DNA of 64,000 bases from Linnemannia hyalina (Eukaryota > Mortierellomycota > Mortierellomycetes > Mortierellales > Mortierellaceae): contig JAHRHY010000009.1 of the NCBI GenBank assembly GCA_019671135.1, positions 1 through 64,000 of the forward strand. The letters run 5' to 3'. The translations under genes were made by a program, and so were the position numbers. How positions within the stretch are numbered: the stretch's first letter is position 1; each line of letters starts with the position of its first letter. Below are positions 2,825 to 60,961 of the stretch, piece by piece. The notes beneath the pieces were generated by a model. It was not told where the DNA came from, did not search any database, and saw nothing but the letters and a program-made list of their open reading frames with translations.

Positions 2825-3296
2825 ATCAAGAATTTTAAAAACTGTAGATATACCACTTGCACAAATAAAGCTTTTATATATGGAATACACATGTAATATT
2901 ATCCTCGTCCCTTCCAATGAGATTCACCAGATATATTACCCATCTTTTTAAAAACTTCCACCATCCTTTGCACAATTTACAATATTTCTTTCTGATCACA
3001 GTGGTGTTTATCCACAATCTACTTATATTTAACATTACGAAAATTACAATAACTATATCTAATATGTTCTACAATGCATGCACTCTTTATGACATTTATT
3101 TTTTCACCATTGGCATATTTACCAACGATCTGTATAGGAGGCCGCATATCAACAAATATTATAACAATCGTAACTTCCTACAAAGTATGTTACATCAAAC
3201 ATTATAAAAACCACGATAACTTCATCTGAGACGTTCCACAATGCATGCACCCTCACCATTATTGCATTACCCATATTTTTTTAAAACATTCACCTA
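2825..3296 (+). other. B element 3' noncoding region
   Basis: AT-rich sequence between the ORF2 stop and the downstream TDR. It matches the corresponding region of B2, which is interrupted there by the C element with the 5-bp duplication AGTAG. It contains two copies of a sequence like ACAATGCATGCAC about 170 bp apart. I see no gene. Confidence 0.7.
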
Positions 3297-3791
3297 GGAG
3301 GCCTTTCACGTCCAAGTTATCATATGGTGTTTGTTACATCTCTGTAGATCTCGACAATATCCATAGCGACTATGGGATGAGAATGTATATATGATACCAG
3401 GCATATAAGACAACCATTGTAACATTTTTTGTTTAACTATCCTACTAAACACCAACCTATTCTCCAAACAACAAAGTCTTCTTATTTTTCGCACACCACA
3501 CTCTTGAATATGTCCATCTACTATTAACCTGTAACCCTCACTGCAAGATTCGCCAGAGTAGTTCTTGTATGTCATCATCTAAAGCACTTGTACTCTCAAC
3601 TGTATCTTTGGGGCGAAATACAGGGGAGAGATTACATTTTAAAAAAACATGTGCTGTCTATTGCTATTTTATTCTGTGTTCTGTTGCCCACTATGAAGAG
3701 ATATGTCAGTTATGGAAGTAAACACTCCGTTCCTTGGGCTTTGGATATTTTTTATATGCCTTTTTATATCCTCTGCACATGAAGGGGCCGC
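3297..3791 (+). repeat. B terminal direct repeat (right TDR of truncated copy)
   Basis: A 495-bp unit beginning GGAGGCCTTTCA and ending TGAAGGGGCCGC, with imperfect inverted ends. The sequence just upstream (CACCTA) is the same internal boundary found before the right TDR in B1 and B2. It is of the B2 sequence type (TAGCGACTATGG region). Its short ORFs overlap on both strands and are not credible genes. Confidence 0.88.
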
Positions 3792-3871: not shown

Positions 3872-4367
3872 GCGGCCCCTTCATGTGCAGAGGATATAAA
3901 AAGGCATATAAAAAATATCCAAAGTCCAAGGAACGGAGTGTTGACTTCCATAACTGGCATATCTCTTCATAGTGGGCAACAGAACACAGAATAAAATAGC
4001 AATAGACAGCACAAGAATTTTTTAAAATGTAATCTCTCCCCTGTATTTCACGACAAAGATACAGTTGGGAATACAAGTGCTTTAGATGATCACATACAAG
4101 AACTACTCTGTCGAATCTTGCAGTGAGGGTTACAGGTTAATAGTAGATGGACATATTCAAGAGTTTGGTGTGCGAAAAATAAGAAGACTTTGTTGTTTGG
4201 AGAATGTAGTTGTGTTTAGTAGGATAATCGCGCAAGGAATGTTACAGTGGTTGTTTTAAATGGTTGATATCATACATACACTCTCCTCTAATGGACGCGG
4301 TGGATATCGTCAAGATCTGCAGAGATGTAACAAACACCATATGATAATTTGGACTTGAAAGGCCTCC
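3872..4367 (-). mobile_element. Solo B TDR with TAA target duplication
   Basis: A complete 496-bp unit in inverted orientation, flanked by TAA at 3869-3871 and 4368-4370. It inserted exactly next to the end of the preceding TDR fragment. A solo unit with its own duplication shows either that the unit moves alone or that a full element collapsed to one TDR by recombination. Confidence 0.88.
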
Positions 4368-6697: not shown

Positions 6698-7192
6698 GGA
6701 GGCCTTTCAAGTCCAAATTATCATATGGTGTTTGTTACATCTCTGCAGATCTTGACGATATCCACCGCGTCCATTAGAGGAGAATGTATATATGATACCA
6801 AGCATATAAGACAACCATTGTAACATTTTTTGTTTAACTATCCTACTAAACACCAACCTATTCTCCAAACAACAAAGTCTTCTTATTTTTCGCACACCAA
6901 ACTCTTGAATATGTCCATCTACTATTAACCTGTAACCCTCACTGCAAGATTCGACAGAGTAGTTCTTGTATGTAATCATCTAAAGCACTTGTATTCTCAA
7001 CTGTATCTTTGTCGTGAAATACAGGGGAGAGATTACATTTTAAAAATTCTTGTGCTGTCTATTGCTATTTTATTCTGTGTTCTGTTGCCCACTATGAAGA
7101 GATATGCCAGTTATGGAAGTCAACACTCCGTTCCTTGGACTTTGGATATTTTTTATATGCCTTTTTATATCCTCTGCACATGAAGGGGTCGC
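6698..7192 (+). repeat. B TDR, left end of truncated copy B4
   Basis: A 495-bp unit with a GGAGGCC start and a GGGGTCGC end, preceded by ACTAA and followed by the internal boundary TACCGAATAAAATATA that also follows the left TDR in B2. It therefore marks the left end of a B copy whose right half is lost beyond the gypsy A insertion at 8888. Confidence 0.87.
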
Positions 7193-7353
7193 TACCGAAT
7201 AAAATATAAAAATATATTTGTATTCTCAACTATGTGCTTGCTGTATGATAGATACCATCCTACATGCTGTTGTGTATACAGTTAAGTATAAGCCTTTTTA
7301 AAAAATTGTTATTGTTGGTTAACGTCATGACAATCCAATACATAAATATTATT

Positions 7354-8644
7354 ATGGATCTAACAAAACACTTCCAACAACTGCTTGATGACCATTGGAC
7401 TTTCCTCAACGCTGGATGGCCAACAATTACACCACGTAATAATCATCGTACTGTAAGCAAGGAAATTGGGTATATGCCAGAAATAAAAGAAACCCTAAAT
7501 CGACGCCTTGGTCCTATTCCAGTGTACTTCTTTCTTGTTGACATCTGGCCAAAGGTTAAGTATCCTGGTCCATACAAAGAAGTGGAGAAAGGTCTTTTAA
7601 TGCTCTATCATCTTGTCAAAGGACTGTCTATGGAAGCAATGGAACCACACATGCCAAAAAGTAGTTTTCATGCAATGCACTCTGTGTTTTATAAGAAAGA
7701 ATATACTTTGCACAACAAGTACATCACCAACTGTATTGCAACAATGTTCTCCACAATTAAAATACGCCTTTTGTCTGCAAAGGAAAAGAATCCTCCATTA
7801 TTTAAGCATGTTACATTGCATCTTGATGGTCATGATACAAGAGCAACATACAAAGGTGAGAGTAGTGCTGATATGTACTCTTACAAGCTGAAAAAGTCAG
7901 GATTACGCACACAGGTAGCAATGGATTGTAATGGCATGGCTTTATTTGTCTCCAAATCTGCATCTTGCAAGAACAATGCTGATGGAACAATGCTGCTAAC
8001 GATGAAGTTGGACAAGAGAGTGCATGAGATGGATTGCATTGCTCTCGATGGAGGGTATCCACAGTTCTTAAGGAGGCTTATAGATGAGTCTGATACTCTT
8101 AAAGTCCAAAATTTCGCTCATCCATACCGTAAACAGAAGAACAAGGAACTTACACAGGAAGAAGCGTTATACAATACCACCTTTGGTAGTTTCCGCTCGC
8201 AGATGGAATCTCTGTTTGCAGACCTTGGTTCCACATTTGAGAAACACAACAACCGTAACTCCTGTGTTGGTGGATAAGAAACAAACATATAATTTGCAGT
8301 TGAAGTTATCTTTGTTACTCTTAAACATGAAAAAGATGGTTGCTTTGTTGAAGATTTCTGCAGAACCAATTCATACAGCTTGGCTTCGCGAAGGATTCGA
8401 GTATCCGACGACAGAGAACGACGTTGAGCAACCAATGGGATATGTTGATGTTGGTGCGCTAGTGGAGGATGGAAATACAATGGCACAACTCCAGAACAAA
8501 TTTCTTGGTATTAATCTTCATGGTGATGTTGATGTTAATGTTGATGAGGACACACCAATGGATCAAGCAGTAATAATGCAACCCGGTCTTTCCATTGAGC
8601 TTAGAGGTACGAAGCGACAAATGGATGTTAATGGTAATTTGTAG
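7354..8644 (+). pseudogene. B ORF1 transposase-like gene, 1-nt frameshift (B4)
   Basis: This copy encodes the same DDE transposase-like protein as B2 (25269-26648) and B1 (56075-57397). One extra A near 8256, just after the codons for EKHNNR, shifts the frame; the C-terminal third continues in the next frame to 8644. The presumed catalytic Asp residues (LHLDGHD, ALDGGYP) and the Glu-containing helix (FRSQMESLF) lie upstream of the shift, so only the C-terminal region is lost. I place the start at the ATG of MDLTKHF, because upstream codons are poorly conserved between copies. Confidence 0.88.
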
Positions 8645-8887
8645 ACTTATTGCAGGTTTTTAAAAGAATAGACATACATAGCCTATTTAGTCAGCGTTGA
8701 GATACGGTATTAACTGCCTAGACGCTAATATGCACCGGTATCTATTATTAAAAGTCATGGTATTATTGTAGTAGATCGGATGCTATTCTATGCTATTCTA
8801 CAACATTCCTTTTTATTTAACAAAGAGGATAAACACATGTACAAACCTACGTCATAAAAGAATACATAAACACATGTACAAACCTAC

Positions 8888-12438: not shown

Positions 12439-12933
12439 GGAGGCCTTTCAAGTCCAAATTATCATATGGTGTTTGTTACATCTCTGCAGATCTTGACGAT
12501 ATCCACCGCGTCCATTAGAGGAGAGTGTATGTATGATATCAACCATTTAAAACAACCACTGTAACATTCCTTGCGCGATTATCCTACTAAACACAACTAC
12601 ATTCTCCAAACAACAAAGTCTTCTTATTTTTCGCTCACCAATATCTTGAATGTGTTCATCTACTATTAAACTGTAACCCTCACTGCAAGATTCGACAGAG
12701 TAGTTCTTGTATGTGATCATCTAAAGCACTTGTATTCTCAACTGTATCTTTGTCGTGAAATACAGGGGAGAGATTACATTTTAAAAATTCTTGTGCTGTC
12801 TATTGCTATTTTATTCTGTGTTCTGTTGCCCACTATGAAGAGATATGCCAGTTATGGAAGTCAACACTCCGTTCCTTGGACTTTGGATATTTTTTATATG
12901 CTTTTTTATATCCTCTGCACATGAAGGGGCCGC
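12439..12933 (+). mobile_element. Solo B TDR inside gypsy A RNase H, TTA duplication
   Basis: A 495-bp unit, GGAGGCC to GGGGCCGC, flanked by TTA at 12436-12438 and 12934-12936. Removing it plus one TTA rejoins the RNase H codons (HPIA / YYSRKLL). The middle third differs from the B1 and B2 TDRs, so it belongs to another sequence variant. The last 31 codons of the unit are open in frame with downstream pol, which creates an artificial N-terminus with a hydrophobic segment. Confidence 0.93.
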
Positions 12934-14383: not shown

Positions 14384-14878
14384 GCAGCCCCTTCATGTGC
14401 AGAGGATATAAAAAGGCATATAAAAAATATCCAAAGCCCAAGGAACGGAGTGTTTACTTCCATAACTGACATATCTCTTCATAGTGGGCAACAGAACACA
14501 GAATAAAATAGCAATAGACAGCACATGTTTTTTTAAAATGTAATCTCTCCCCTGTATTTCGCCCCAAAGATACAGTTGAGAGTACAAGTGCTTTAGATGA
14601 TGACATACAAGAACTACTCTGGCGAATCTTGCAGTGAGGGTTACAGGTTAATAGTAGATGGACATATTCAAGAGTGTGGTGTGCGAAAAATAAGAAGACT
14701 TTGTTGTTTGGAGAATAGGTTGGTGTTTAGTAGGATAGTTAAACAAAAAATGTTACAATGGTTGTCTTATATGCTTGGTATCATATATACATTCTCATCC
14801 CATAGTCGCTATGGATATTGTCGAGATCTACAGAGATGTAACAAACACCATATGATAACTTGGACCTGAAAGGCCTCC
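14384..14878 (-). repeat. B2 TDR (3' side of the element)
   Basis: 495 bp, ends GCAGCCCC and GGCCTCC. It shares with the other B2 TDR a terminal variant (GCAG rather than GCGG), the TAGTCGCTATGG block, the ATAACTTGGACC block and the ACATGTTTTTTT block. All of these differ from the two B1 TDRs. Confidence 0.92.
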
Positions 14879-22375: not shown

Positions 22376-24637
22376 CTACTCTTCTGCGGTCTCAAATGTT
22401 ACTTCAAGAGGCTTCTTTTCTTCCATCGTACTTTTCTCTTTGGCTTGAATACTATCTAATACACTTTGCACTATGGTTTTTCTGTTGTTAGATCCTTCTT
22501 TTGCAAACTTACATAATATATCGGAATGTGGTTCGCGGGAACCAAACTTATCCATGTGCCATGTTTCGTAGTTGGAATAATCTTTCTCCAACAAACCTAG
22601 GTGAAAAATTAGTTCTTTTTCTTCTGCATTACCATCTGCCGAAACGTATTCCTCGCGGAGTTCTTCTTCGATAGCTGTTATTTTGCTATATACTTCTCCC
22701 ATTGCCTTCAGAAAATCATGATGGTCTTTTGTAGTGTAAACACTTGAGGCATTCACATTTTCGCTTTCCATAGGTCCACCATCTTCTAGAGTTTTCTTAA
22801 CATCCGACTCTTGCACCTCATCATCTACTTTTTCTACAAGTTCATCTAAAGTTTCCTTAATATTCGACTCTTGCACCTCATCATCTATTTTTTCTACCGG
22901 TTCACCTTTCTCTGTCGACCTATCCTTAGACCATTGTGGCTTAAAGCCCATAGCAAAGATCTTTTCTTTTTCCTTTTGGTTAAGATTATCATAGTCGACA
23001 TTCTCTGCACCAATGTGGTCATCAGTCACCAAGCCAACTACAATGTTTTGCTTGCGGATCTTGAGAATGTGCTTTCCATTTACAAGTACATTCTTGGAAT
23101 ACTCCAATTGCTGCTTGTGAAACCTTTTCCATTTCATCTTGGATATATCTGTCGGTCCTTCCACTGGTAGTTCCTCTTCTACTTCGACCTCCTCGTTGAA
23201 AAGCATCTTTCTCTCTTCATCAGACATTTCTTGAAGTTTCATCTTGCTAAGCATGGAGCGTTCCAAGATATCCATCTCTGGAACATCACCACCGCCACGC
23301 AGATGATCAAGCGTAAACAGGCCAACGTATGTATTCTTTCCACATAGCTTGACAATGTACTTAGCCTTCATCGTAAAGTTAGTTGCATACTCAAGCATGT
23401 CGTTATTAGGATGAACCATCCATCCTCCATCCTTTGCAAGTGGTATGTCTTTCTCTGATCTAATGTTACGCACCGTTGTGGCCAGTGCAAATGTGTGTTC
23501 ATCTTTTTCATCCTTAGAAACATCTACATTAGAAGATGGCTCTGCATTTTTGGGCATCTCTGAATGCCTTTTCTTTCGAGAAGTCTTCTTCTCATCATCC
23601 TTAGATGGCTTTTTATGAGATAGTTTTTCATCAGGGTTATCCTTAGAGGTATCATCTCCAGATTCTACATCAGGTCTGTTATTGGACTTGCCATCATCAG
23701 AGTCTTTATCTTTAGAGGAATCATCCTCAGAGTCAGCATTATCAGACGTATCACCATCATCTGTATCATCGTCAGAATTCTCATCAGCAGAAGACTCTTC
23801 TATTTTTTCTACATCTGCTGAAGTTGCCTCTTGAAGACCCATCTTGGCCAATATGCGTGCCTCTTTCTCAGATATTTCTGGCGCAGGGAGATTCTTGCCC
23901 ATGAGCTTAGGTGGACACAATGCAATGTAGAGATTCTTTTCCTTTAGCCTAATAATGTACTTGCCATTTACAGTAAAGCTTTTTGCATACAGGAAAGCTG
24001 GATTAGTTGCATAACGCGTCCATATACATGTATTAGCGAGTGGTACATTTTTCTTGGACGTTATGTCAACTACCTTTGGACTCAACGGAAAGGAGACGGC
24101 AATTATATCTTCTTCATCATCATCATCGGACGGCTCTTCATCCGATGACTCCTGCTTGTTTCTCTTTCGCTTCTTTGGTTCTTCATCCTCGGAAGTCATA
24201 TCGTCATCGGAAGACACAAACTTAGAAGTATGTGTCTTCTTTAAAGCCTTGGAAGACTTAGTACGCTTGTCGACAGGTGCGTTGTTGTTACTACGTTTTA
24301 TATAACCTCTATCTTGATCTTGATGACGTCCACAGTATGTTTGACCAAGTTTGGCTACACTACCACAATTAGCACCCTTAATAGTTGTGCCTTGACACTT
24401 GCGCGCAGGATCGTGGACATAACAATGCATGCCTTCATCATCAACTTCCTTCATGCATTTGCGCTTGGACTTGGTGCACTTTTCTCCACAAAAGTAGTAT
24501 CTCTCTACTTCCTCATCCTCATCAAGCGCCTTAAAGATCTTATTTGCATCTTTCTTGTTAAACTCCACTCCCTTCTTAGAGGAGAATGTCTCAAAGGCCT
24601 TGGTGATGAGCTCGATTGTAAGCTGAACGTACTTCAT
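22376..24637 (-). CDS. B element ORF2: zinc-binding acidic repeat protein (B2 type)
   Basis: 753 aa. The N-terminal 45 residues are helical (QLTIELITKAFETFSSKKG). Two tandem Cys/His modules follow at about 50-105: C-x6-C-x10-C-x2-H, then C-x9-C-x10-C-x2-H (CQGTTIKGANC ... YCGRH), a zinc-ribbon-like pattern. Lys-rich and Asp/Glu/Ser-rich stretches separate three homologous modules of about 65 residues, each with (E/F)YA-NGK-I-L--KN--VGL and ending in an MG-Q or MGF helix. The C-terminal 150 residues are helical and unlike B1 ORF2. Function unknown; a DNA- or chromatin-binding partner of the ORF1 transposase is the simplest idea. It has its own TATA box about 200 bp upstream (near 24855). Confidence 0.85.
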   Translation of the reverse strand: MKYVQLTIELITKAFETFSSKKGVEFNKKDANKIFKALDEDEEVERYYFCGEKCTKSKRKCMKEVDDEGMHCYVHDPARKCQGTTIKGANCGSVAKLGQTYCGRHQDQDRGYIKRSNNNAPVDKRTKSSKALKKTHTSKFVSSDDDMTSEDEEPKKRKRNKQESSDEEPSDDDDEEDIIAVSFPLSPKVVDITSKKNVPLANTCIWTRYATNPAFLYAKSFTVNGKYIIRLKEKNLYIALCPPKLMGKNLPAPEISEKEARILAKMGLQEATSADVEKIEESSADENSDDDTDDGDTSDNADSEDDSSKDKDSDDGKSNNRPDVESGDDTSKDNPDEKLSHKKPSKDDEKKTSRKKRHSEMPKNAEPSSNVDVSKDEKDEHTFALATTVRNIRSEKDIPLAKDGGWMVHPNNDMLEYATNFTMKAKYIVKLCGKNTYVGLFTLDHLRGGGDVPEMDILERSMLSKMKLQEMSDEERKMLFNEEVEVEEELPVEGPTDISKMKWKRFHKQQLEYSKNVLVNGKHILKIRKQNIVVGLVTDDHIGAENVDYDNLNQKEKEKIFAMGFKPQWSKDRSTEKGEPVEKIDDEVQESNIKETLDELVEKVDDEVQESDVKKTLEDGGPMESENVNASSVYTTKDHHDFLKAMGEVYSKITAIEEELREEYVSADGNAEEKELIFHLGLLEKDYSNYETWHMDKFGSREPHSDILCKFAKEGSNNRKTIVQSVLDSIQAKEKSTMEEKKPLEVTFETAEE

Positions 24638-25268: not shown

Positions 25269-26648
25269 CTACAGATTACCATTAACATCCATTTGTCGCT
25301 TCGTACCTCTAAGCTCAATGGAAAGACCGGGTTGCATTATTACTGCTTGATCCATTGGTGTGTCCTCATCAACATTAACATCAACATCACCATGAAGATT
25401 AATACCAAGAAATTTGTTCTGGAGTTGTGCCATTGTATTTCCATCCTCCACTAGCGCACCAACATCAACATATCCCATTGGTTGCTCAACGTCGTTCTCT
25501 GTCGTCGGATACTCGAATCCTTCGCGAAGCCAAGCTGTATGAATTGGTTCTGCAGAAATCTTCAACAAAGCAACCATCTTTTTCATGTTTAAGAGTAACA
25601 AAGATAACTTCAACTGCAAATTATATGTTTGTTTCTTATCCACCAACACAGGAGTACGGTTGTTGTGTTTCTCAAATGTGGAACCAAGGTCTGCAAACAG
25701 AGATTCCATCTGCGAGCGGAAACTACCAAAGGTGGTATTGTATAACGCTTCTTCCTGTGTAAGTTCCTTGTTCTTCTGTTTACGGTATGGATGAGCGAAA
25801 TTTTGGACTTTAAGAGTATCAGACTCATCTATAAGCCTCCTTAAGAACTGTGGATACCCTCCATCGAGAGCAATGCAATCCATCTCATGCACTCTCTTGT
25901 CCAACTTCATCGTTAGCAGCATTGTTCCATCAGCATTGTTCTTGCAAGATGCAGATTTGGAGACAAATAAGGCCATGCCATTACAATCCATTGCTACCTG
26001 TGTGCGTAACCCTGACTTTTTCAGCTTGTAAGAGTACATATCAGCACTGCTCTCACCTTTGTATGTTGCTCTTGTATCATGACCATCAAGATGCAATGTA
26101 ACATGCTTAAATAATGGAGGATTCTTTTCCTTTGCAGACAATAGGCGTATTTTAATTGTGGAGAACATTGTTGCAATACAGTTGGTGATGTACTTGTTGT
26201 GCAAAGTATATTCTTTCTTATAAAACACAGAGTGCATTGCATGAAAACTACTTTTTGGCATGTGTGGTTCCATTGCTTCCATAGACAGTCCTTTGACAAG
26301 ATGATAGAGCATTAAAAGACCTTTCTCCACTTCTTTGTATGGACCAGGATACTTAACCTTTGGCCAGATGTCAACAAGAAAGAAGTACACTGGAATAGGA
26401 CCAAGGCGTCGATTTAGGGTTTCTTTTATTTCTGGCATATACCCAATTTCCTTGCTTACAGTACGATGATTATTACGTGGTGTAATTGTTGGCCATCCAG
26501 CGTTGAGGAAAGTCCAATGGTCATCAAGCAGTTGTTGGAAGTGTTTTGTTAGATCCATAATAATATTTATGTATTGGATTGTCATGACGTTAACCAACAA
26601 TAACAATTTTTTAAAAAGGCTTATACTTAACTGCATACACAACAGCAT
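25269..26648 (-). CDS. B element ORF1: DDE transposase-like protein
   Basis: 459 aa as an open frame; the likely start is the internal ATG of MDLTKHF (residue about 31), as in the other copies. An N-terminal helical region with NNHRTVSKEIG and KSSFHAMHSVFYKKE resembles a helix-turn-helix. The catalytic fold follows: first Asp in LHLDGHDTRA, YSYK-KK--LRTQVAMD strand region, second Asp in CIALDGGYP, and Glu in SFRSQMESLF after a long helix. This arrangement is that of IS5/PIF-Harbinger-like (DDE_Tnp_4) enzymes. A 3-bp target duplication and a second element-encoded protein also fit Harbinger. Terminal direct repeats do not. The C-terminus is acidic. Confidence 0.82.
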   Translation of the reverse strand: MLLCMQLSISLFKKLLLLVNVMTIQYINIIMDLTKHFQQLLDDHWTFLNAGWPTITPRNNHRTVSKEIGYMPEIKETLNRRLGPIPVYFFLVDIWPKVKYPGPYKEVEKGLLMLYHLVKGLSMEAMEPHMPKSSFHAMHSVFYKKEYTLHNKYITNCIATMFSTIKIRLLSAKEKNPPLFKHVTLHLDGHDTRATYKGESSADMYSYKLKKSGLRTQVAMDCNGMALFVSKSASCKNNADGTMLLTMKLDKRVHEMDCIALDGGYPQFLRRLIDESDTLKVQNFAHPYRKQKNKELTQEEALYNTTFGSFRSQMESLFADLGSTFEKHNNRTPVLVDKKQTYNLQLKLSLLLLNMKKMVALLKISAEPIHTAWLREGFEYPTTENDVEQPMGYVDVGALVEDGNTMAQLQNKFLGINLHGDVDVNVDEDTPMDQAVIMQPGLSIELRGTKRQMDVNGNL

Positions 26649-26719: not shown

Positions 26720-27214
26720 GCAGCCCCTTCATGTGCAGAGGATATAAAAAGGCATATAAAAAATATCCAAAGCCCAAGGAACGGAGTGTTTACTTCCATA
26801 ACTGACATATCTCTTCATAGTGGGCAACAGAACACAGAATAAAATAGCAATAGACAGCACATGTTTTTTTAAAATGTAATCTCTCCCCTGTATTTCGCCC
26901 CAAAGATACAGTTGAGAGTACAAGTGCTTTAGATGATGACATACAAGAACTACTCTGGCGAATCTTGCAGTGAGGGTTACAGGTTAATAGTAGATGGACA
27001 TATTCAAGAGTGTGGTGTGCGAAAAATAAGAAGACTTTGTTGTTTGGAGAATAGGTTGGTGTTTAGTAGGATAGTTAAACAAAAAATGTTACAATGGTTG
27101 TCTTATATGCTTGGTATCATATATACATTCTCATCCCATAGTCGCTATGGATATTGTCGAGATCTACAGAGATGTAACAAACACCATATGATAACTTGGA
27201 CCTGAAAGGCCTCC
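26720..27214 (-). repeat. B2 TDR (5' side of the element)
   Basis: 495 bp, the 5' terminal repeat relative to ORF1 and of the same variant as 14384-14878, including the GCAG terminus. The 71 bp between it and ORF1 form the leader, beginning TACCGAATAAAA on the minus strand. Confidence 0.92.
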
Positions 27215-28328: not shown

Positions 28329-29321
28329 GGAGGCCTTTCAGGTCCAAGTTATCATATGGTGTTTGTTACATCTCTGTAGATCTCGACAATATCCATAGCG
28401 ACTATGGGATGAGAATGTATATATGATACCAAGCATATAAGACAACCATTGTAACATTTTTTGTTCAACTATCCTACTAAACACCAACCTATTCTCCAAA
28501 CAACAAAGTCTTCTTATTTTTCGCACACCACACTCTTGAATATGTCCATCTACTATTAACCTGTAACCCTCACTGCAAGATTCGCCAGAGTAGTTCTTGT
28601 ATGCGGCCCCTTCATGTGCAGAGGATATAAAAAGGCATATAAAAAATATCCAAAGTCCAAGGAACGGAGTGTTGACTTCCATAACTGGCATATCTCTTCA
28701 TAGTGGGCAACAGAACACAGAATAAAATAGCAATAGACAGCACAAGAATTTTTAAAATGTAATCTCTCCCCTGTATTTCACGACAAAGATACAGTTGGGA
28801 ATACAAGTGCTTTAGATGATCACATACAAGAACTACTCTGTCGAATCTTGCAGTGAGGGTTACAGGTTAATAGTAGATGGACATATTCAAGAGTTTGGTG
28901 TGCGAAAAATAAGAAGACTTTGTTGTTTGGAGAATAGGTTGGTGTTTAGTAGGATAGTTAAACAAAAAATGTTACAATGGTTGTCTTATATGCTTGGTAT
29001 CATATATACATTCTCCTCTAATGGACGCGGTGGATATCGTCAAGATCTGCAGAGATGTAACAAACACCATATGATAATTTGGACTTGAAAGGCCTCCTAT
29101 GTCATCATCTAAAGCACTTGTACTCTCAACTGTATCTTTGGGGCGAAATACAGGGGAGAGATTACATTTTAAAAAAACATGTGCTGTCTATTGCTATTTT
29201 ATTCTGTGTTCTGTTGCCCACTATGAAGAGATATGTCAGTTATGGAAGTAAACACTCCGTTCCTTGGGCTTTGGATATTTTTTATATGCCTTTTTATATC
29301 CTCTGCACATGAAGGGGCAGC
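28329..29321 (+). mobile_element. B TDR (outer), ATA duplication, split by another TDR
   Basis: The forward unit occupies 28329-28602 and 29101-29321 (495 bp joined). ATA flanks it at 28326-28328 and 29322-29324, and removal restores the C2 gag codons. Its right terminus is GGGGCAGC, the variant also found in B2. Confidence 0.92.
28603..29097 (-). mobile_element. B TDR (inner), TAT duplication, nested in another TDR
   Basis: A complete inverted 495-bp unit (GCGGCCCC to GGCCTCC) inserted in the outer TDR with TAT at 28600-28602 and 29098-29100. It has the GTTTGG / GCGGTGGATATC variants also found in the 6698 copy. Confidence 0.92.
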
Positions 29322-33545: not shown

Positions 33546-34535
33546 GGAGGCCTTTCGTCCAAATTATCATATGGTGTTTGTTACATCTCTGTAGATCTCG
33601 ACGATATCCATAGCGACTATGAGATGAGAATGTATATATGATACCAAGCATGTAAGATAACCATTGTAACATTTTTTTGTTTAATTATTCTAGGAGGCCT
33701 TTCAAGTCCAAATTGTAATATAGTATATGTTACATCTCTGCAGACCTTGACAATATCTACAGCGACCATTAGAGGAGAGTGTATGTATAATATCCACCAT
33801 GTAAAACAACCACTGTAACATCCCTTGCATAACTATCCTACTAAATACCAACCTATTCTCCAAACAACAAAGTCTTCTTATTTTTCGCACACCAATCTCT
33901 TGAATGTGTCAATCTACTATTAAACTGTAACCCTCACTGCAAGATTAAGGGTAGTGCTTCTTGTATGTGATCATCTAAAGCACCTGCACCCTCAACTGTA
34001 TTTTGTCGTGAAATACAGGGGAGAGATTACATTTTAAAAAACATGTGCTATCTATTGCTATTTTATCTCATGTTCTATTGCCGACTTTAAAGAGATACAT
34101 CAGCTATGGAAGTCAACACTGTATTCCTTGGGCTTTGGATATTTTGTATATGCCTTGTTATCTCCTTTGCACATGGAGAGGCCGCCTACTAAACACCATC
34201 ATATTCTTCAAACAACAAAGTCTTCTTATCTTTTGCACTCCAATCTCTTGAATGTCTCCATCTACTAATAAACTGTACCCCTCACTGCAAGATTAAGCAG
34301 AGTACTTCTTGTATGTGATCATCTAATGCACTTGTAGTCTTAACTGTATCTTTGGGGCGAAATACAGGGGAGAGATTACATTTTAAAAAATCTTGTGCTG
34401 TCTATTGTTATTTTATTCTGTGTTCTGTTGCGCACTATGAAGAGATATGTCAGTTATGGAAATCAACACTCCGTTCCTTGGGCCTTGGATATTTTTTATA
34501 TGCTTTTTTATATCCTCTGCACATGGAAGGGTCGC
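33546..34535 (+). mobile_element. B TDR (outer), split by another TDR
   Basis: Forward unit in two pieces, 33546-33692 and 34189-34535 (494 bp joined). It lacks two bases near its start (CTTTCGTCC) and ends GGGTCGC. The outer flanks (CAA left, TTA right) do not match, so one flank has been rearranged. It interrupts the intron after K1 exon 2. Confidence 0.85.
33693..34185 (+). mobile_element. B TDR (inner), CTA duplication, diverged
   Basis: A 493-bp unit flanked by CTA (33690-33692, 34186-34188) inside the outer TDR. It is the most diverged copy (ATTGTAATATAG, GGAGAGGCCGC end), so nesting of units is not confined to recent activity. Confidence 0.88.
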
Positions 34536-40945: not shown

Positions 40946-40950
40946 CAACA

Positions 40951-44763: not shown

Positions 44764-44828
44764 GAATTGAGGAAAAGGCAGAAGGCGTGAATGTATGCAA
44801 AGTATATTCCATTACAGCAAATTGGAGA

Positions 44829-51070: not shown

Positions 51071-51981
51071 ATGGAAGTTCCCACAATCCACCAGAAGTGG
51101 GTAGAGGAAACCTCTGACCACACTATCGAGGGGTTCGCGACCAAGTTTTTGTACACCGATCCACAAATTGCGTACCTTGATTTCAAGGCGGCCGTCGAAA
51201 AGTCGCGACTGAAGGCCCAATCGAAGACTTCGGTCATCAGGAAATTCAATACTTGGAAAACGAACAAATCTCATGCTACTTTATTTTGGATGCAATAGAG
51301 ACAGTCAGTATCCATTAAGAAAGGAAAGTCGGTCGCAACCATAGGTTTGGTTGACGCGGCAACAAACGAGCTTTCCAAGGCCATCCAGGCAAGTTGTCCA
51401 CTGTTACAAAAAAAATTGCGCCTTGTTCTCTAATCTATGCTAATATGTATGCCTTACTTGTGCTATTAGAATGAAGCGTTGACGGGAGATGAGGGTGACG
51501 CGTCAATCTCGTCAATCCCCCTACAAAAAAACCGGAGCGCTCGCTACCAAATCCGATCAACCTCAAAGAAGACGAGAGGCGGCGATGAAGCAGGCGGCGA
51601 TGAAGCAAGCGATGGCGAAAGCGACAGTGAAGTATTAGAAGATGAGGCAGGTGTCCAGGATGAAGAAAGCCACTGGAACGTTATTCGAGAACTCCGCGAG
51701 GCGGAGAAGGACACCGAACCTGGATTTTATCCACTCTTTCGGGCACTCTACCATGCGGTAAGTTCGTCTCTTCTCTGTATTCACTGCGGTGTCGAGGTTG
51801 TATCGTAGCTCATACGTCTCTCTTCTTGCACTCCTTTCATTAGGCACGGGGCGAAAGGTTTCAAACACCAAATCCAAAACCAGCTTTGAGCACACAACAG
51901 TCTTTTTTGTGGAACCTCGTTTATTCGCGTCTGGACGCATTCAGAACCATGGCACCATCGGAGCAAAAAGACGTCTTGTAA
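51071..51981 (+). CDS. P1: acidic multi-exon fungal protein (right arm copy)
   Basis: Three exons join in phase 0. 51071-51388 (MEVPTIHQKWVEETSD ... ATNELSKAIQ) is followed by a GC-AG intron, 51470-51757 (NEALTGDEGDAS ... YPLFRALYHA) by a GT-AG intron, and 51844-51981 (ARGERFQTPNPK ... PSEQKDVL, stop) ends the gene. Exon 2 has an acidic stretch (residues about 145-170) and a Lys/Arg patch. An in-frame TAG at 51296-51298 interrupts exon 1. It is either a nonsense mutation or lies in an additional 66-bp intron starting at a weak donor (GTCATC) and ending CAATAG. A paralogue of K0 by its 3' end and intron position. Function unknown. Confidence 0.5.
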
Positions 51982-52046
51982 TCTCCAATTTGCTGTAATG
52001 GAATATACTTTGCATACATTCACGCCTTCTGCCTTTTCCTCAATTC

Positions 52047-53682: not shown

Positions 53683-54849
53683 AAAACCGTAAGAAATTAC
53701 TTTTCCGGCTATAGGCAAACAACAAGATGGCGCACATGACCTTTCTTGGACTTGTTATTTTTATTTTAACAGGATGTCAACGATTTTCATATAGTAGCTT
53801 CCCACAGTATTCCCAGCTATTGGACTGTTGCACTTCTTTCCTCTCTCTTTGCTTCTTTGATTGCGTAGCATTCGTTTCAATACATGGACAAATCCATCTG
53901 CAGCCTGCCTCTTTTCTTCCGATGTTAGAACGTGCATAAAAGCTCTGGATAATAAGATAGAGAGGAGAGTAAATATTACCAACGTTAATATATTTCTGAC
54001 TGTTCGATCGGAATTAAGACAAAAAGAATGAAACAAAGAAAACTAGCAAGAGCACCGTTGCCCATGGATCGCTAACAATAACGACACTGTACTACTCAAG
54101 CGCTTCATCGCTGAAGCAAATGCATAATCTCTTAATGGCCATGGTCATGATCATTACAGGCATATGGTTCCATGGAAACCTAGTGGCCAAGAGATGCGGG
54201 AAAGCGTCTTTTACTGTTATGTTCTAGAGGGAGTTGACAGTAGTAACCTGGAACAGCAGTCCACAAAGGACACACCAGACCAGGAACCTATCTTCTACTA
54301 ATACAAAATCGTTATCTCCATCACCTGACTTATCGTAAATCATGTGATGTTCCCTCTTTCTCTTTCTCACGGTGTTGTGGTGTGTGTGGTGTTGTGGTGT
54401 GTGTATGGTGTGTATGGTGTATGTGTAGTGTGTGTGTAAGTGTTTGTGTGTGTTGTGTGTGTTGTGTGTGCTGTGTGCGTTTTTTTTAGTTTAAAGTTAA
54501 TTAAATTAAAATGAGAGATGGATGGGGGTTGCAATCAGAGTCATACCGGTAAGCAGATCTGCCGGTAACCATGTTAAAATGCGACTGCGGAATGAGAGCC
54601 ACGCCGGTAAGAAGATCTGCCGGTAAGCAGTAAGCATGTTAAGATGCGAAAATGGAGAATGGAGAGAGTAGAGCCGATGACTTTTCTTTCTCTTTCACGG
54701 ACAAGCATATTTTCTTTCCTTCCTTTCTCTTTTTTTTTTTTTTTTTTTTTTTTATCTGTCAGTAGCCAGCATACCTTCCACTCGCTCTCACCGTGTCACT
54801 CTTACTACCACTTCCACCCCTGATGTCTCTCCTTCTGCGACCTTTACAG
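53683..54849. other. Right arm noncoding stretch with simple repeats
   Basis: Mirror of 41961-43127: TG-rich microsatellite at about 54365-54480, CCGGTAAG repeats near 54550-54630, and a T homopolymer near 54730-54752. No supported gene. Confidence 0.5.
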
Positions 54850-55180
54850 GATACAGACGGGCCAAGGCGACCAACTTAACAAGGTCGCTCTACTGCTAGC
54901 GCTCCCTCTACTTCCTCCACTCTCCACTTCCTTTCCACCAAATGTACCACCACTATCACCGCCAAACTCAATGCCATCACCCCTTACTCTTCCTCCTCAT
55001 TCCTCCTCTTCTTCCTCCTCTTCTTCTTCCTCCTCTTCTTCTTTTCCCTCTTTCCCCCCTTTTACCTCCTCTTCCTCCTCCATCAGTAGGTGTGCCAAGC
55101 ATCGTGGACGTGGGAACGGCCAACAAAGGTCGACAAGTTGTTACTGTCCCTACTATAAAGGAAAACAAACGGTATTTTAG
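54850..55180 (+). CDS. P3: Ser/Pro-rich protein, 3' exon (right arm copy)
   Basis: After a good acceptor (CCTTTACAG) the frame reads IQTGQGDQLNKVALLLALPLL, then a Pro-rich segment, a run of about 14 serines from a TCC/TCT array, and a Cys/His-containing end (RCAKHRGRGNGQQ, SCYCPYYKG) before the stop. The C-terminal C-x2-H ... C-x-C pattern could bind metal. The upstream exon may lie at about 54760-54840. Because the serine run is a simple repeat in DNA, the coding claim rests on the two flanking segments. No family recognised. Confidence 0.38.
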
Positions 55181-55334
55181 AGTAAACAGACCACAATTGC
55201 TCAGATTGCCGCCTCTTTACAGCACAACTCCTAAGTTATAATGGTAACAACTGCGAAGCAAGCTTTGATGCCATTTCAGACGGGGATGCTTACGTTGCAA
55301 TTGCTGACGTGGTTCAATAGTTCGAGACTACAAG

Positions 55335-55474
55335 TAGAGCGTCTAATCGAATTTATTCGAATTTCCTATGTTTTGCTTAGGATTTGTGCGCATTCGAAAC
55401 GGATTAAAATTTTCGACTCGAATGCGCACAAACCCAATGCAAACCATAGGGAATTCAAATAAATCGATTAGATT
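55335..55474. mobile_element. TTCGAA-family hairpin MITE (right arm)
   Basis: Mirror copy of 41336-41475. Its distal end ATT (55472-55474) is the left target duplication of B1, so B1 inserted at or beside the MITE terminus. Confidence 0.7.
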
Positions 55475-55969
55475 GGAGGCCTTTCAAGTCCAAATTATCA
55501 TATGGTGTTTGTTACATCTCTGCAGATCTTGACGATATCCACCGCGTCCATTAGAGGAGAGTGTATGTATGATACCAAGCATATAAGACAACCATTGTAA
55601 CATTTTTTGTTTAACTATCCTACTAAACACCAACCTATTCTCCAAACAACAAAGTCTTCTTATTTTTCGCACACCACACTCTTGAATATGTCCATCTACT
55701 ATTAACCTGTAACCCTCACTGCAAGATTCGCCAGAGTAGTTCTTGTATGTCATCATCTAAAGCACTTGTACTCTCAACTGTATCTTTGGGGCGAAATACA
55801 GGGGAGAGATTACATTTTAAAAATTCTTGTGCTGTCTATTGCTATTTTATTCTGTGTTCTGTTGCCCACTATGAAGAGATATGTCAGTTATGGAAGTAAA
55901 CACTCCGTTCCTTGGGCTTTGGATATTTTTTATATGCCTTTTTATATCCTCTGCACATGAAGGGGCCGC
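55475..55969 (+). repeat. B1 left TDR
   Basis: 495 bp, GGAGGCCTTTCA to TGAAGGGGCCGC, followed by the internal boundary TACCGAA. The first 334 bp also belong to the palindrome. Confidence 0.93.
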
Positions 55970-56074
55970 TACCGAAAAAAAATATAAACGTATATTTGTA
56001 TTCTCAACTATGTGCTTGCTGTGAGATACAGTTGATAGATACCATCCTACATGCTCTTGTGTATGCAGTAAAGT

Positions 56075-57397
56075 ATGAGCATTTTTAAAAAATTGTTATT
56101 GTTGGTCAACGTCATGACAATCCAATACATAAATATTATTATGGCTCTAACAAAACATTTCAAACAACTGCTTGATGACCATTGGACTTTCCTTGACGCT
56201 GGATGGCCAACAGTTACACCACGTAATAACCATCGTACTGTAAGCAAGGAAATTGGGTTTATGCCACAAATAAAAGAGACTCTGAATCGACGCCTTGGAC
56301 CTATTCCAGTGTACTTCTTTCTTGTTGATATCTGGCCAAAAGTCAAGTATCCTGGGCCATACAAAGAAGTGGAGAAAGGTCTTTTAATGCTCTATCATCT
56401 TGTCAAAGGACTGTCTATGGAAGCAATGGAACCACACATGCCAAAAAGTAGTTTTCATGCAATGCACTCTGTGTTTTATAAGAAAGAATATACTTTGCAC
56501 AATAAGTACATTACCAACTGTATTGCAACAATGTTCTCCACAATTAAAATACGCCTATTGTCTGCAAAGGAAAAGAATCCTGTATTATTTAAGCATGTCA
56601 CATTGCATCTTGATGGTCATGATACAAGAGCAACATACAAAGGTGAGAGCAGTGCTGATATGTATTCTTACAAGCTGAAAAAGTCAGGATTACGCACACA
56701 GGTAGCAATGGATTGTAATGGCATGGCTTTATTTGTCTCCAAATCTGCATCTTGCAAGAACAATGCTGATGGAACAATGCTGCTGACGATGAAGTTGGAC
56801 AAGAGAGTGCATGAGATGGATTGCATAGCTCTCGATGGAGGGTATCCACAGTTCTTAAGGAGGCTTGTAGATGAGTCTGATACTCTTAGATTCCAAAATT
56901 TCGCTCATCCATACCGTAAAAAGAAGAACAAGGAACTTACAGAGGAAGAAGCGTTATACAATACCACCTTTGGTAGTTTCCGCTCACAGATGGAATCTCT
57001 GTTTGCAGATCTTGGTTCCACATTTGAGAAACACAACAATCGTACTCCTGTATTGGTGGATAAGAAACAAACATATAATTTGCAGTTGAAGTTATCTTTG
57101 TTACTCTTAAACATGAAAAAGATGGTTGCTTTGTTAAAGATTCCTGCAGAACCAATTCATACAGCTTGGCTCCGCGAAGGATTCGAGTATCCGACGACAG
57201 AGAACGATGTTGAGCAACCAATGGGATATGTTGATGTTGGTGCACTAGTGGAGGATGGAAATACAATGGCACAACTCCAGAACGAATTTCTTGGTCTTGA
57301 ACTTCATGATAATGTTGATGAGGACCAGTACTCTGATGAGGACACACCAATGGATCCACCAGTAATACTGCAACCCGGCCTTTCCATTGCGCTTTGA
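56075..57397 (+). CDS. B element ORF1: DDE transposase-like protein (B1)
   Basis: 440 aa; the likely start is the ATG at 56141 (MALTKHF), since this is where similarity to the other copies becomes continuous. Presumed catalytic residues in this numbering: D180 (LHLDGHD), D254 (ALDGGYP), E307 (FRSQMESLF). A helical N-terminal third (residues 23-160) may bind DNA. The C-terminal tail is acidic. AGA to TGA at 57395 removes the last 14 or so residues found in B2 (RGTKRQMDVNGNL), whose codons remain, frameshifted, downstream. About 90% identical to the B2 protein by eye, with many synonymous differences, which suggests selection on the protein. Best match by motif: the PIF-Harbinger/IS5-like group. 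Confidence 0.83.
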   Translation: MSIFKKLLLLVNVMTIQYINIIMALTKHFKQLLDDHWTFLDAGWPTVTPRNNHRTVSKEIGFMPQIKETLNRRLGPIPVYFFLVDIWPKVKYPGPYKEVEKGLLMLYHLVKGLSMEAMEPHMPKSSFHAMHSVFYKKEYTLHNKYITNCIATMFSTIKIRLLSAKEKNPVLFKHVTLHLDGHDTRATYKGESSADMYSYKLKKSGLRTQVAMDCNGMALFVSKSASCKNNADGTMLLTMKLDKRVHEMDCIALDGGYPQFLRRLVDESDTLRFQNFAHPYRKKKNKELTEEEALYNTTFGSFRSQMESLFADLGSTFEKHNNRTPVLVDKKQTYNLQLKLSLLLLNMKKMVALLKIPAEPIHTAWLREGFEYPTTENDVEQPMGYVDVGALVEDGNTMAQLQNEFLGLELHDNVDEDQYSDEDTPMDPPVILQPGLSIAL

Positions 57398-58117
57398 GGT
57401 ACGTAGTACGAAGCGACAAATGGATGTTAATGGTAATTTGTAGACTTATTGCAGGTTTTTAAAAGAATAGACATACATAGCCTATTTAGTCAGCGTTGAG
57501 ATACGGTATTAACTGCCTAGACGCTAATATGCACCGGTATCTATTATTAAAAGTCATGGTATTATTGTAGTAGATCGGATGCTATTCTATGCTATTCTAC
57601 AACATTCCTTTTTATTTAACAAAGAGGATAAACACATGTACAAACCTACGTCATAAAAGAATACATAAACACATGTACAAACCTACGTCATAAAAGAATA
57701 CTACATTCTTAACCATTTTTAAACCCCGTCTTTAACGCCAAGCAGTCTTAATAAGCAAGATCTACGTCATACGAGGAACACTACGTTATTAACCACTTAG
57801 ATGCCTTTTTAAAACTCTTTTGTTACTAAGCGCCAAGCAGTGTTAATAAGCAAGCGCTATTAATATCCAATGTGGCAGTGTCCCATGAATTAGTATAAAT
57901 AAAGGACTCCACTTCCCTCTTGCTTAATCTTTATCTTATCTAGTAACCAACCAACCATTATCCATATCTATACAACCATCCATACCTATACAACCATCTT
58001 TTATTGCAATTCTTTATATCAGTGTACTAAGCAGCTGCAATCTACCACACATAAACTGAAAAGTCATTCACACCCACCATACCACAAGTACAATCTATAT
58101 CGTTCATATCCAAAAAC
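57398..58117 (+). promoter_or_regulatory. B1 region between ORF1 and ORF2, with TATA box
   Basis: 720 bp. A 33-bp unit (ACACATGTACAAACCTACG core) is tandemly duplicated at about 57631-57697; gypsy A inserted in the same repeat of B4. Two related blocks with AAGCAGT-TTAATAAGCAAG follow. TATAAATA at 57894-57901 and a CT-rich tract precede the ORF2 start by about 200 bp. Confidence 0.65.
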
Positions 58118-60340
58118 ATGCAGTACGTTCAGCTTACAATCGAGCTCATCACCAAGGCCTTCGAGACATTTTCTTCTAAGAAGGGAGTGGAGTTTACCAA
58201 GAAAGATGCAAATAAGATCTTTAAGGCGCTTGATGGGGATAAGGAAGTGGAGAGATACTACTTTTGTGGAGCAAAGTGCGTCAAGTCCAAGCGTAAATGC
58301 ATGAAGGAAGTTGACGATGAAGGCATGCATTGTTATGTCCACGATCCTGCGCGCAAGTGTCAAGGCACAACCATTAAGGGCGCTAATTGTGGTAGTGTAG
58401 CCAAAATTGGTCAAACATACTGTGGGCGTCATCAAGATCAAGATAGAGGTCATATAAAACGTGGTAACAAGAATGCACCTGTCGTTACGCGTCCCAAGTC
58501 TTCCAAGGCTTTAAAGAAGACACATACTTCTAAGTTTGTATCATCTGATGACGATATGACTTCCGAGGATGAAGAGCCGTCCGACGATGATGATGAAGAA
58601 GATAAAATTGCCGTCTCCTTTCCGTTGAGTCCAAAGGTAGTTGACATAACGTCCAAGAAAAATGTACCACTCGCTAATACAGGCATATGGATGCGTTATG
58701 CAACTAATCCAGCTTTTCTGTATGCAAAAAACTATACTGTAAATGGCAAGTACATTATTAAGCTGAAGGAAAAGGATCTCTACGTTGTATTGTGTCCACC
58801 TGAGCTCATGGGGAAAAATCTTTCTGTACCGGAATTATCTGACAAAGAGGTACGTATATTGCAAAAGATGGGACTCCAAGAGGCAACTCCTGCAGATGTA
58901 GAAAAAATAGAAGAGTCTTCTGCTGATGAGAATTCTGACGATGATACAGATGATGGTGATACGTCTGATGATGGTGATACGTCTGATGATGCTGGCTCTG
59001 ACGATGATTCCCCTGATGATAAAGACTCTGATGATGGCAAGTCCAATAACAGACCTAATGTAGAATCTGGAGATGATACCTCTAAGGATAACCCTGATGA
59101 AAAACTATCTCATAAAAAGTCATCTAAGGATGATAAGAAGAAGACTCTTCGAAAGAAAAGGCCTTCAAAGATGCCCAAAAATGCAGAGCCATCTTCTAAT
59201 GTAGACGTTTCTAAGGATGGAAAAGATGAACATACATTTGCACTGGCCACAACGGTGCATAACATTAGATCAGAGAAAGACATAGCACGTGCGAAGGACA
59301 GAGGATGGATGATTCATCCTAATAACGACATGCTTGAGTATGCAACTAAGTTTACGATGAATGGCAAGTACATTGTCAGGCTATCTGGAAAGAATACATA
59401 CGTTGGCCTGTTTACGCTTGATGCTCTGCGCGGTGTCGGTGATGTTCCAGAGTTGGATATCTTGGAACGCTCCATGCTTAGCAAGATGAAACTTCAACCA
59501 TTGTCTGATGAAGAGAGAAAGACGCTTTTCAACGAGGAGATCGAAGTAGAAGAAGAAGTACCAGTAGAAGGACCAACAGATAAATCCAAGGTGATATGGA
59601 AAAAACTTAACAAGTACTTGGAATATTCCGAGAATGTACTTGTAAATGGAATGCACATTCTCAAGATGCGCAAAAAAGACACTGTAATCGGCTTGATGAC
59701 TGATGACCATATTGCTGCAGAGAATGTAGAGTGTCATTCTCTTAGCCAGAAGGAAAAAGAGAAGTTGTTTGCTATGGGATTTAAACCGCATGAGCATAAG
59801 CAAAGCTTGCCACAGAAAGATGAGAGCACATGTGAGGATGATAAAGATGCTGAGGGCGATAAAGATGCTGAGGATGACAAAGATGCGGTGGGTGATAAAG
59901 ATGCTGAAGATGACAAAGATGCTGAGGGTGATAACGATGCTGAGGATGACAAAGATGCTGAGGGTGATAACGATGCTGAAGATGATAAAGATGCTGAGGA
60001 TGATAAAGATGCTGAGGATGTTATGTGGAAAAGGTACCCTAAAGATAAAAGCTCCTCGGGTATAATCGTCATAGATAAAGACGAAATTAAATGGACAACA
60101 TGTTCGTTTGACAAGAAGCATGAATATGCAACCAACTACCTTTTCGACGGATGTCATCTGCTCAAGAGGTACGAAGAGGACATTATTGTTGGACTGCTGT
60201 ATAAGATACCTGCAAACGGTGACAGTAACTATAGTCGAGACAAATTTACCAACAACAAACAAAAGCAGAAGTTAATTGCCATGGGGTTCACGATCGAGGA
60301 ATTGCCTAAATTGTACTCTCCAGATGTAAAGTTTTGGTAG
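58118..60340 (+). CDS. B element ORF2: zinc-binding acidic repeat protein (B1 type)
   Basis: 740 aa. Zinc modules: C54-x6-C61-x10-C72-x2-H75 and C81-x9-C91-x10-C102-x2-H105 (with C50 as a further candidate). Basic linker 110-140, acidic 143-162. Four copies of a module of about 65 residues (about 185-255, 385-460, 490-560, 655-730), each with an aromatic-Ala start, NGKYI-L strand, VGL strand and a terminal MG helix. A tandem DKDAE(G/D) array lies at about 577-630. The fourth module and the last 80 residues replace the unrelated helical C-terminus of B2 ORF2. The CxxxTxxGxxC...YCxxH pattern is also known from proteins of large DNA viruses (general knowledge, not searched here). Role unknown; probably nucleic-acid or histone binding. 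Confidence 0.85.
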   Translation: MQYVQLTIELITKAFETFSSKKGVEFTKKDANKIFKALDGDKEVERYYFCGAKCVKSKRKCMKEVDDEGMHCYVHDPARKCQGTTIKGANCGSVAKIGQTYCGRHQDQDRGHIKRGNKNAPVVTRPKSSKALKKTHTSKFVSSDDDMTSEDEEPSDDDDEEDKIAVSFPLSPKVVDITSKKNVPLANTGIWMRYATNPAFLYAKNYTVNGKYIIKLKEKDLYVVLCPPELMGKNLSVPELSDKEVRILQKMGLQEATPADVEKIEESSADENSDDDTDDGDTSDDGDTSDDAGSDDDSPDDKDSDDGKSNNRPNVESGDDTSKDNPDEKLSHKKSSKDDKKKTLRKKRPSKMPKNAEPSSNVDVSKDGKDEHTFALATTVHNIRSEKDIARAKDRGWMIHPNNDMLEYATKFTMNGKYIVRLSGKNTYVGLFTLDALRGVGDVPELDILERSMLSKMKLQPLSDEERKTLFNEEIEVEEEVPVEGPTDKSKVIWKKLNKYLEYSENVLVNGMHILKMRKKDTVIGLMTDDHIAAENVECHSLSQKEKEKLFAMGFKPHEHKQSLPQKDESTCEDDKDAEGDKDAEDDKDAVGDKDAEDDKDAEGDNDAEDDKDAEGDNDAEDDKDAEDDKDAEDVMWKRYPKDKSSSGIIVIDKDEIKWTTCSFDKKHEYATNYLFDGCHLLKRYEEDIIVGLLYKIPANGDSNYSRDKFTNNKQKQKLIAMGFTIEELPKLYSPDVKFW

Positions 60341-60463
60341 TTGTTGAGACAGATGAAGAGTAGATATTTTAAAAACTATCCAATTGTCAACAGTTGGCAT
60401 TTGTGGTTGTATATATAGCATGAACTTTTTAAAAATGTAACATGTCTTCGACACTTCCACCTA
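60341..60463 (+). other. B1 3' noncoding region
   Basis: About 120 bp, shorter than in B2, ending in CCACCTA directly before the right TDR, the same boundary as in the other copies. Confidence 0.7.
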
Positions 60464-60958
60464 GGAGGCCTTTCAAGTCCAAATTATCATATGGTGTTTG
60501 TTACATCTCTGCAGATCTTGACGATATCCACCGCGTCCATTAGAGGAGAGTGTATGTATGATACCAAGCATATAAGACAACCATTGTAACATTTTTTGTT
60601 TAACTATCCTACTAAACACCAACCTATTCTCCAAACAACAAAGTCTTCTTATTTTTCGCACACCACACTCTTGAATATGTCCATCTACTATTAACCTGTA
60701 ACCCTCACTGCAAGATTCGCCAGAGTAGTTCTTGTATGTCATCATCTAAAGCACTTGTACTCTCAACTGTATCTTTGGGGCGAAATACAGGGGAGAGATT
60801 ACATTTTAAAAATTCTTGTGCTGTCTATTGCTATTTTATTCTGTGTTCTGTTGCCCACTATGAAGAGATATGTCAGTTATGGAAGTAAACACTCCGTTCC
60901 TTGGGCTTTGGATATTTTTTATATGCCTTTTTATATCCTCTGCACATGAAGGGGCCGC
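60464..60958 (+). repeat. B1 right TDR
   Basis: 495 bp, of the same variant as 55475-55969 at every diagnostic site checked (GCGTCCATTAGAGG, AAAATTCTTGTGC, GCGGCC end). Confidence 0.93.
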
Positions 60959-60961
60959 ATT

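Follow-up and report, generated by a model that had tools for sequence, protein, structure and literature searches.

A PIF/Harbinger-type DNA transposon of Linnemannia hyalina with long direct repeats at both ends

Long identical direct repeats at the ends of a mobile element are commonly read as a sign of a retroelement. The element at positions 55475-60958 of the window examined here, i.e., the initial 64 kb of contig C50 (2,317,658 bp), has such ends and encodes a DDE transposase. The question raised by this locus is what kind of element it represents and how its two end repeats come to be identical. The window belongs to the PacBio-sequenced genome of the soil fungus Linnemannia hyalina SCG-10 (N50 of 2,317,658 bp; PMC8444964). 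The survey covered this one genome (GCA_019671135.1; 51.5 Mb, 50 contigs).

Layout and coding capacity of the element

The element, designated B1, is one copy of a multi-copy transposon with the structure LTDR-INT-LTDR, where LTDR is the long direct repeat at each element end and INT is the interior between the LTDRs, about 4.5 kb in B1 (Table 1). The two LTDRs are in direct orientation and identical at 495 of 495 positions, and ATT is present on both sides, as stated in an earlier note on this DNA. The LTDR begins with GGAGG and finishes with GGCCGC. Its inverted ends are imperfect (their score is equalled by 0.56% of 5000 internal pairs) and bound the LTDR and the whole element alike; inverted ends of its own were not seen in INT. 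The view of the earlier note that each end is a TIR-bounded unit agrees with these inverted ends and with the occurrence of single LTDRs flanked by their own 3-bp duplications. LTDR positions 292-357 (55766-55831) resemble INT positions 27-92 (55996-56061), with 70% over 66 nt (E 0.002). The similarity may mark a regulatory stretch common to both or be left over from the way LTDR and INT originated.

Table 1. Element copies, single repeats and related features in the 64-kb window
Feature	Position	Strand	Basis
3-bp target duplication ATT, left copy of B1	55472..55474	.	sequence
B1 left LTDR, 495 bp; imperfect inverted ends 55475-55491 and 55953-55969	55475..55969	+	
B1 INT, type A 3' end	55970..60463	+	
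B1 ORF1, DDE_Tnp_4 (PIF/Harbinger-type) transposase, D180 D254 E307	56075..57397 (stop included)	+	
B1 ORF2, Cys/His-rich N-terminus and internal repeats	58118..60340 (stop included)	+	
B1 right LTDR, identical to left	60464..60958	+	
3-bp target duplication ATT, right copy of B1	60959..60961	.	sequence
B2 left LTDR	26720..27214	-	
B2 right LTDR, type B INT end, identical to B2 left LTDR	14384..14878	-	
CAA duplications of B2	14381-14383 and 27215-27217		
B2 ORF1	25269..26648	-	
B2 ORF2	22376..24637	-	
Third copy, truncated: left LTDR and first part of INT, ORF1 frame broken	6698..8887	+	
Right-hand remnant of a further copy: type B INT end and right LTDR (3297-3791)	3019..3791	+	
Solo LTDR in gypsy pol, TTA duplication	12439..12933	+	
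Solo LTDR inside another LTDR (28329-29321), ATA duplication	28603..29097	-	
Solo LTDR inside another LTDR (33546-34535), CTA duplication	33693..34185	+	
Solo LTDR, TTA duplication	3872..4367	-	

The second complete copy, B2 (14384-27214), has the same layout as B1, is located in a gypsy pol gene and also contains a nested gypsy element. The pol gene reads '...DLVWLDARNLQ' before B2 and 'QTNRPCKKLDHKRMGPYRI...' beyond it; the flanks were translated apart, and the frame continues across B2. Repetition of the B1 architecture, the CAA duplication and restoration of the gypsy pol frame, all proposed for B2 before, are therefore borne out by its identical LTDRs and by the joining flank translations.

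A near-perfect inverted repeat of 7.4 kb lies beside B1 (40913-48328 and 48482-55897, with a 153-bp spacer). One of its arms ends in the left LTDR of B1; the LTDR at the end of the other arm is interrupted by a gypsy element (35247-40945). Interpretation of the two arms as the same site with and without INT was rejected: the arm LTDR (41335 down to 35145) shares the left (5') flank of B1, but the right (3') flank differs. Elsewhere in the window, a long 9-bp tandem repeat occupies positions 5459-5881, where an open frame reads as repeated 'EPF'.

The product of ORF1 passes the Pfam cut-off for DDE_Tnp_4 (E 6.9e-8), in line with its earlier assignment to transposases of the IS5/PIF-Harbinger kind. 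All 74 aligned ORF1-type sequences match this family at E 0.001. The proposed catalytic residues, D180, D254 and E307, are invariant in this alignment (where numbering from a later Met makes them D158, D232 and E285), and ORF1 is under constraint, with a dN/dS of 0.24. The AlphaFold2 model of ORF1 aligns best to DDE transposases in VIA-align, so that the possibility that ORF1 lacks a DDE fold, which had been named as fatal to the proposal, did not materialize. Foldseek gave no significant match for this model (best E 0.12), and the fold assignment is based on VIA-align and Pfam. A sequence search of solved structures returned nothing credible for either ORF1 or ORF2.

Pfam matches to reverse transcriptase or integrase were absent from both ORFs, as the earlier note had suggested for reverse transcriptase. 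Pfam also revealed no Myb domain in 11 ORF2-type sequences and no His-Me finger nuclease in ORF1 or ORF2-type sequences, a result compatible with remote similarity. ORF2 probably encodes an accessory DNA-binding protein. The 495-bp LTDRs contain no ORF of at least 150 aa wholly inside them; ORF1 is located in INT.

Two further abundant DDE_Tnp_4 families are present in the genome. Their open frames span about 441 and 458 aa and share 49% and 56% identity, respectively, with ORF1 over the stretches compared. Downstream of one of these sister families, a 1.5-kb stretch occurs once per element, a count that fits elements both with and without direct-repeat ends.

Genomic copies and target duplications

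Copies were counted with sequence patterns allowing up to 3 mismatches; the reversed-pattern control gave 0 each time, and the counts include old or partial copies. Further copies, which the earlier note had proposed to seek genome-wide, are numerous: 135 LTDR-to-INT junctions, 127 INT cores (copies of the ORF1 core word) and 123 INT-to-LTDR junctions in direct orientation (65 of type A and 58 of type B; 118 without mismatch). The near equality of these three numbers indicates that most INT copies lie between two LTDRs. In inverted orientation, an LTDR adjoining the INT end gave 2 exact matches, versus the 123 direct ones. LTDR starts number 473 in total.

The left ends examined comprised 100 listed among the 135 junctions and 19 obtained via the ORF1 list. 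A right LTDR on the same strand was located 4.76-5.81 kb further on for 78 of these 119 ends. Type A accounts for 48 of the 78 elements, with a spacing of 4989-5008 bp in 32 of them, and type B for 30, with a spacing of 5303-5325 bp in 24. The left end C12:3813261 was omitted from the 78, its nearest right end being already assigned to another element. For the other 41 left ends, the right end was farther off, as in B2 with its nested gypsy element, or none was found.

At least seven LTDRs, four of which were read, are shared by consecutive copies, closing one INT on its right and opening the following one on its left. Among the exact LTDR starts listed on contigs C1-C18, 40 of 100 touch no listed junction, giving at most 40 solo LTDRs among these; by subtraction, the genome contains roughly 220. 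Four type A right junctions at C44:2819095-2844177, about 8.36 kb apart, form a tandem array of a larger segment with the right end of the element. Their interpretation as a multimer was rejected, since these LTDRs are followed by TAAGTG and not by INT; they were not counted as dimers.

The copies are crowded near contig ends. On contigs of known length above 500 kb, 72 of 82 left element ends are within 100 kb of a contig end, where 10.8% are expected. Four TTAGGG repeats gave no match in the genome search, and the location is claimed only as near contig ends.

In total, 166 full-length LTDRs were read with their flanks. Both LTDRs were read for 64 elements (63 of the 78 plus B2), and an exact 3-bp duplication outside the pair was identified in 49 of them, compared to 7.0% in a control of mismatched left and right flanks. 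Copied contig-end regions can duplicate insertions, and four elements with copied flanks were removed, solely by the criterion of the same 8-bp flanks. After this deduplication, 45 of 60 elements have an exact duplication and 15 do not. Both dimers with the two outer flanks read are also bounded by duplications, AAT on C8 and TAA on C12. On C4, a whole element is inserted in an LTDR, with a TTT duplication. Thus, the complete LTDR-INT-LTDR unit is inserted in one piece and duplicates 3 bp of its target; that the unit moves whole had been proposed on the basis of B2.

The LTDR also occurs alone with the same 3-bp stagger: 18 of 22 deduplicated solo LTDRs have a 3-bp duplication. Solos inside other LTDRs were revealed at window positions 28603 and 33693 and on contigs C10 and C11. 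These solos may stem from independent transposition of the LTDR or from LTDR-LTDR recombination within an element, two routes that are not separable in these data. The pooled target is palindromic, C-TWA-G (C in 64%, G in 67%; n=64, one of these being a copied-flank solo), and the duplication is strictly TTA or TAA in 15 of 63 cases.

Given abundant solo LTDRs crowded near contig ends, two of them could flank a transposase gene by accident, and the earlier note had regarded such chance pairs of solo units as a possible refutation. This explanation has a negligible probability. It is refuted by the constant junctions and spacing, the direct orientation, the outer duplications common to both sides and the matched LTDR pairs described below, and it does not agree with the pairing of 78 of 119 left ends with a right LTDR.

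It is also very improbable that the element is a non-autonomous LTR retroelement that carries a DDE gene by accident and is copied with reverse transcriptase supplied by other elements. LTR retrotransposons share with it the paired direct repeats, which are identical at insertion and diverge later, as well as solo repeats and tandem copies with a common repeat. However, no reverse transcriptase was found in ORF1 or ORF2, the repeat has the GGAGG...GGCCGC ends instead of TG...CA, and the left repeat is followed by TACCGAAAA and not, judged by eye, by a recognisable primer site of the TGG type. Inspection by eye also showed no polypurine tract before the right repeat. The 3-bp duplications at C-TWA-G, the constraint on the DDE gene and the insertion of the repeat alone, with its inverted ends, also argue against a retroelement.

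Identity of the LTDR pairs and its possible origin

In a simple cut-and-paste composite, the left and right repeats would descend separately. The LTDR pairs display a different pattern. Of the 45 deduplicated insertions that carry a duplication, 36 have identical LTDRs, eight have pairs 1-3 columns apart and one has a pair 19 columns apart. The mean LTDR difference is 0.73 within pairs versus 23.4 between elements. The summed within-pair difference equals 33, while the minimum in 10,000 within-type shuffles was 325. The identical pairs comprise 17 distinct LTDR sequences, which are up to 51 columns (10%) apart. Left-left and right-right distances are alike (23.1 and 23.7), and no column is fixed between left and right. 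All 64 elements give the same, though noisier, picture: 43 identical pairs and a sum of 201, versus a minimum of 572 in 2000 shuffles.

In six of the eight slightly different pairs, the differences are mainly states that are absent from the 164 other copies or occur in one of them, which indicates that they arose after insertion; in the remaining two, they are short tracts common to many copies. The two LTDRs of an element therefore start out identical and are reset together, as in LTR retroelements, with no reverse transcriptase found. This LTR-like reset of the repeat pair is the strongest feature of the element and was absent from the earlier note.

For 24 elements, 2.6 kb of INT was read and compared. 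Among these, C1:4258701 differs from B1 in 2 INT columns, yet both of its LTDRs differ from those of B1 at the same 27 of 27 sites; each of these pairs is internally identical and has its own duplication (TTT and ATT, respectively). Relative to B1, C24:141277 has 4 differences in INT and 29-30 in the LTDRs, its own pair being 1 apart, and C27:38167 has 8 in INT and 48 in the LTDRs, its own pair being 2 apart. The contrast between C1:4258701 and B1 could also reflect conversion of INT, and the case is built on the pair statistics.

We moderately favour the view that this DNA transposon is composite-like, has a PIF/Harbinger-type transposase acting on the LTDR and moves via a circle with a single LTDR and a cointegrate-like insertion duplicating this LTDR. 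The 495-bp LTDR would be the unit acted on by the transposase, with INT supplying ORF1 and ORF2. Recombination between the two LTDRs of an element would leave a solo LTDR and release a circle of one LTDR plus INT. The transposase encoded in INT would then join the single LTDR of the circle, at both its ends, to a new target, with the joining points staggered by 3 bp. Synthesis across the LTDR would yield target-LTDR-INT-LTDR-target, in a cointegrate-like manner, as discussed for the IS26 translocatable units. One LTDR copied at insertion would thereby give the identical pair, which LTR retroelements obtain by reverse transcription. Circles recombining with resident LTDRs would produce dimers and swap LTDR alleles. 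The proposed scheme would account jointly for the identical pairs, the direct orientation, solos with duplications, dimers and LTDR allele exchange. To our knowledge, Harbinger-type transposases have no established replicative (cointegrate) mode of transposition. Counted against the scheme are the occurrence of conversion between LTDRs in C10:1299846 and C20:3939 and the elements without a duplication, several of which are mismatched. Among the 15 deduplicated elements of the latter kind, the within-pair differences exceeding 3 are 7, 13, 9, 6, 51, 22 and 9; six of the 15 have pairs that differ by more than 8 or by tracts of up to 51 columns. Such mismatched pairs are expected if recombination joined different elements.

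The strongest rival is gene conversion between the two ends. Here, the whole composite is cut and pasted by its outermost inverted ends, and the LTDRs are kept alike by frequent conversion, helped by the crowding of copies near contig ends. Conversion-like tracts are indeed seen in C10:1299846 (positions 87-162, 76 bp), C8:42809 (350-353) and C2:39640. Despite their duplications, C10:1299846 and its flank copy C35:32594 have pairs differing by 19 bases within the above tract, and C20:3939, a flank copy of C14:8130, has a pair differing by 26 bases. The LTDRs are also recombinant: the four-gamete test was failed by 240 of 1953 informative site pairs among 17 haplotypes. Frequent conversion should, however, make partial tracts common, yet a single one of the 45 pairs differs by more than 3 bases. 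The identity also extends to a variant located 3 bases from the LTDR end, on both sides in 4 type B elements, and the left and right LTDR sets have no separate history. We therefore regard maintenance by conversion as unlikely.

Less likely still is that the transposase moves solo LTDRs only, while one-LTDR circles carry INT into these resident solos by homologous recombination. This improbable route corresponds to model b1 of Kojima and Bao (PMC9587614). Dimers with common LTDRs exist, and solos with duplications are abundant. Crossover in unlike LTDRs, however, leaves two hybrids, yet 44 of 45 pairs are at most 3 bases apart although the alleles differ by up to 51 columns.

Relationship to known elements

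The DDE_Tnp_4 transposase, the 3-bp duplication, the palindromic T/A-rich target, the short G...C inverted ends and the presence of two genes are shared with PIF/Harbinger elements. The second gene of the latter is of the Myb/SANT type, and the members known to us end in inverted repeats only. The L. hyalina element, by contrast, has a 495-bp direct repeat at each end and no Myb-like second protein detectable by Pfam. Full-text searches of open-access literature listed no Harbinger-type or fungal element of such build.

The closest precedent is KolobokP (Kojima and Bao, 2022, Mob DNA 13:24, PMC9587614), an LTDR-INT-LTDR element reported from seven animal phyla, whose proteins are a Kolobok transposase and a His-Me nuclease. 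These authors describe it as different from all other DNA transposons and consider both unequal crossover and an IS26-like circle. KolobokP resembles the L. hyalina element in having LTDRs (of about 450 or 660 bp) with their own short TIRs, a DDE transposase and a second protein in INT, solo LTDRs, (LTDR-INT)n-LTDR multimers and target duplications. It differs in belonging to the Kolobok superfamily, in its occurrence in animals, in duplications of 3-5 bp and in the His-Me finger nuclease. The element described here is from a fungus, has 3-bp duplications at C-TWA-G and an unrelated-looking ORF2, and its ORF1 matches DDE_Tnp_4 in Pfam. A within-pair LTDR comparison for KolobokP was not found in the consulted text of PMC9587614.

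The 'possibly undescribed architecture' of the earlier note is therefore too strong a wording. The searches of open-access literature brought up no description of it for the Harbinger superfamily or for fungi, but the same parts have been published for KolobokP (PMC9587614). A described family with the same structure, which that note had named as a possible refutation, thus exists in part, but in animals and with a transposase of another superfamily.

The translocatable units and pseudo-compound transposons of IS26/IS6 are likewise direct repeats with inverted ends around a cargo. Insertion of their one-repeat circle yields a matched pair; in L. hyalina, the matched pairs fit this route, and the circle would be its counterpart. 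The IS26/IS6 elements are bacterial and have the transposase inside the repeat, whereas the L. hyalina repeat is non-coding and the transposase is in the cargo (comparison based in part on the discussion in PMC9587614).

The evidence leaves it evenly balanced whether this eukaryotic DDE transposon follows a life cycle like that of bacterial translocatable units, that is, with replicative insertion of a circle carrying a single non-coding TIR-bounded repeat and an LTR-like pair formed without reverse transcription. If true, the composite direct-repeat architecture would have arisen a second time in eukaryotes, KolobokP being the first case, and reset of the pair at insertion would be backed by evidence at population level. 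The architecture is now represented in two DDE superfamilies and two kingdoms, which suggests a workable strategy rather than an accident. The matched-pair statistics make it directly testable how KolobokP-like elements keep two repeats. With more than 100 copies in one fungus of a DNA transposon with retroelement-like ends, such elements can be misfiled.
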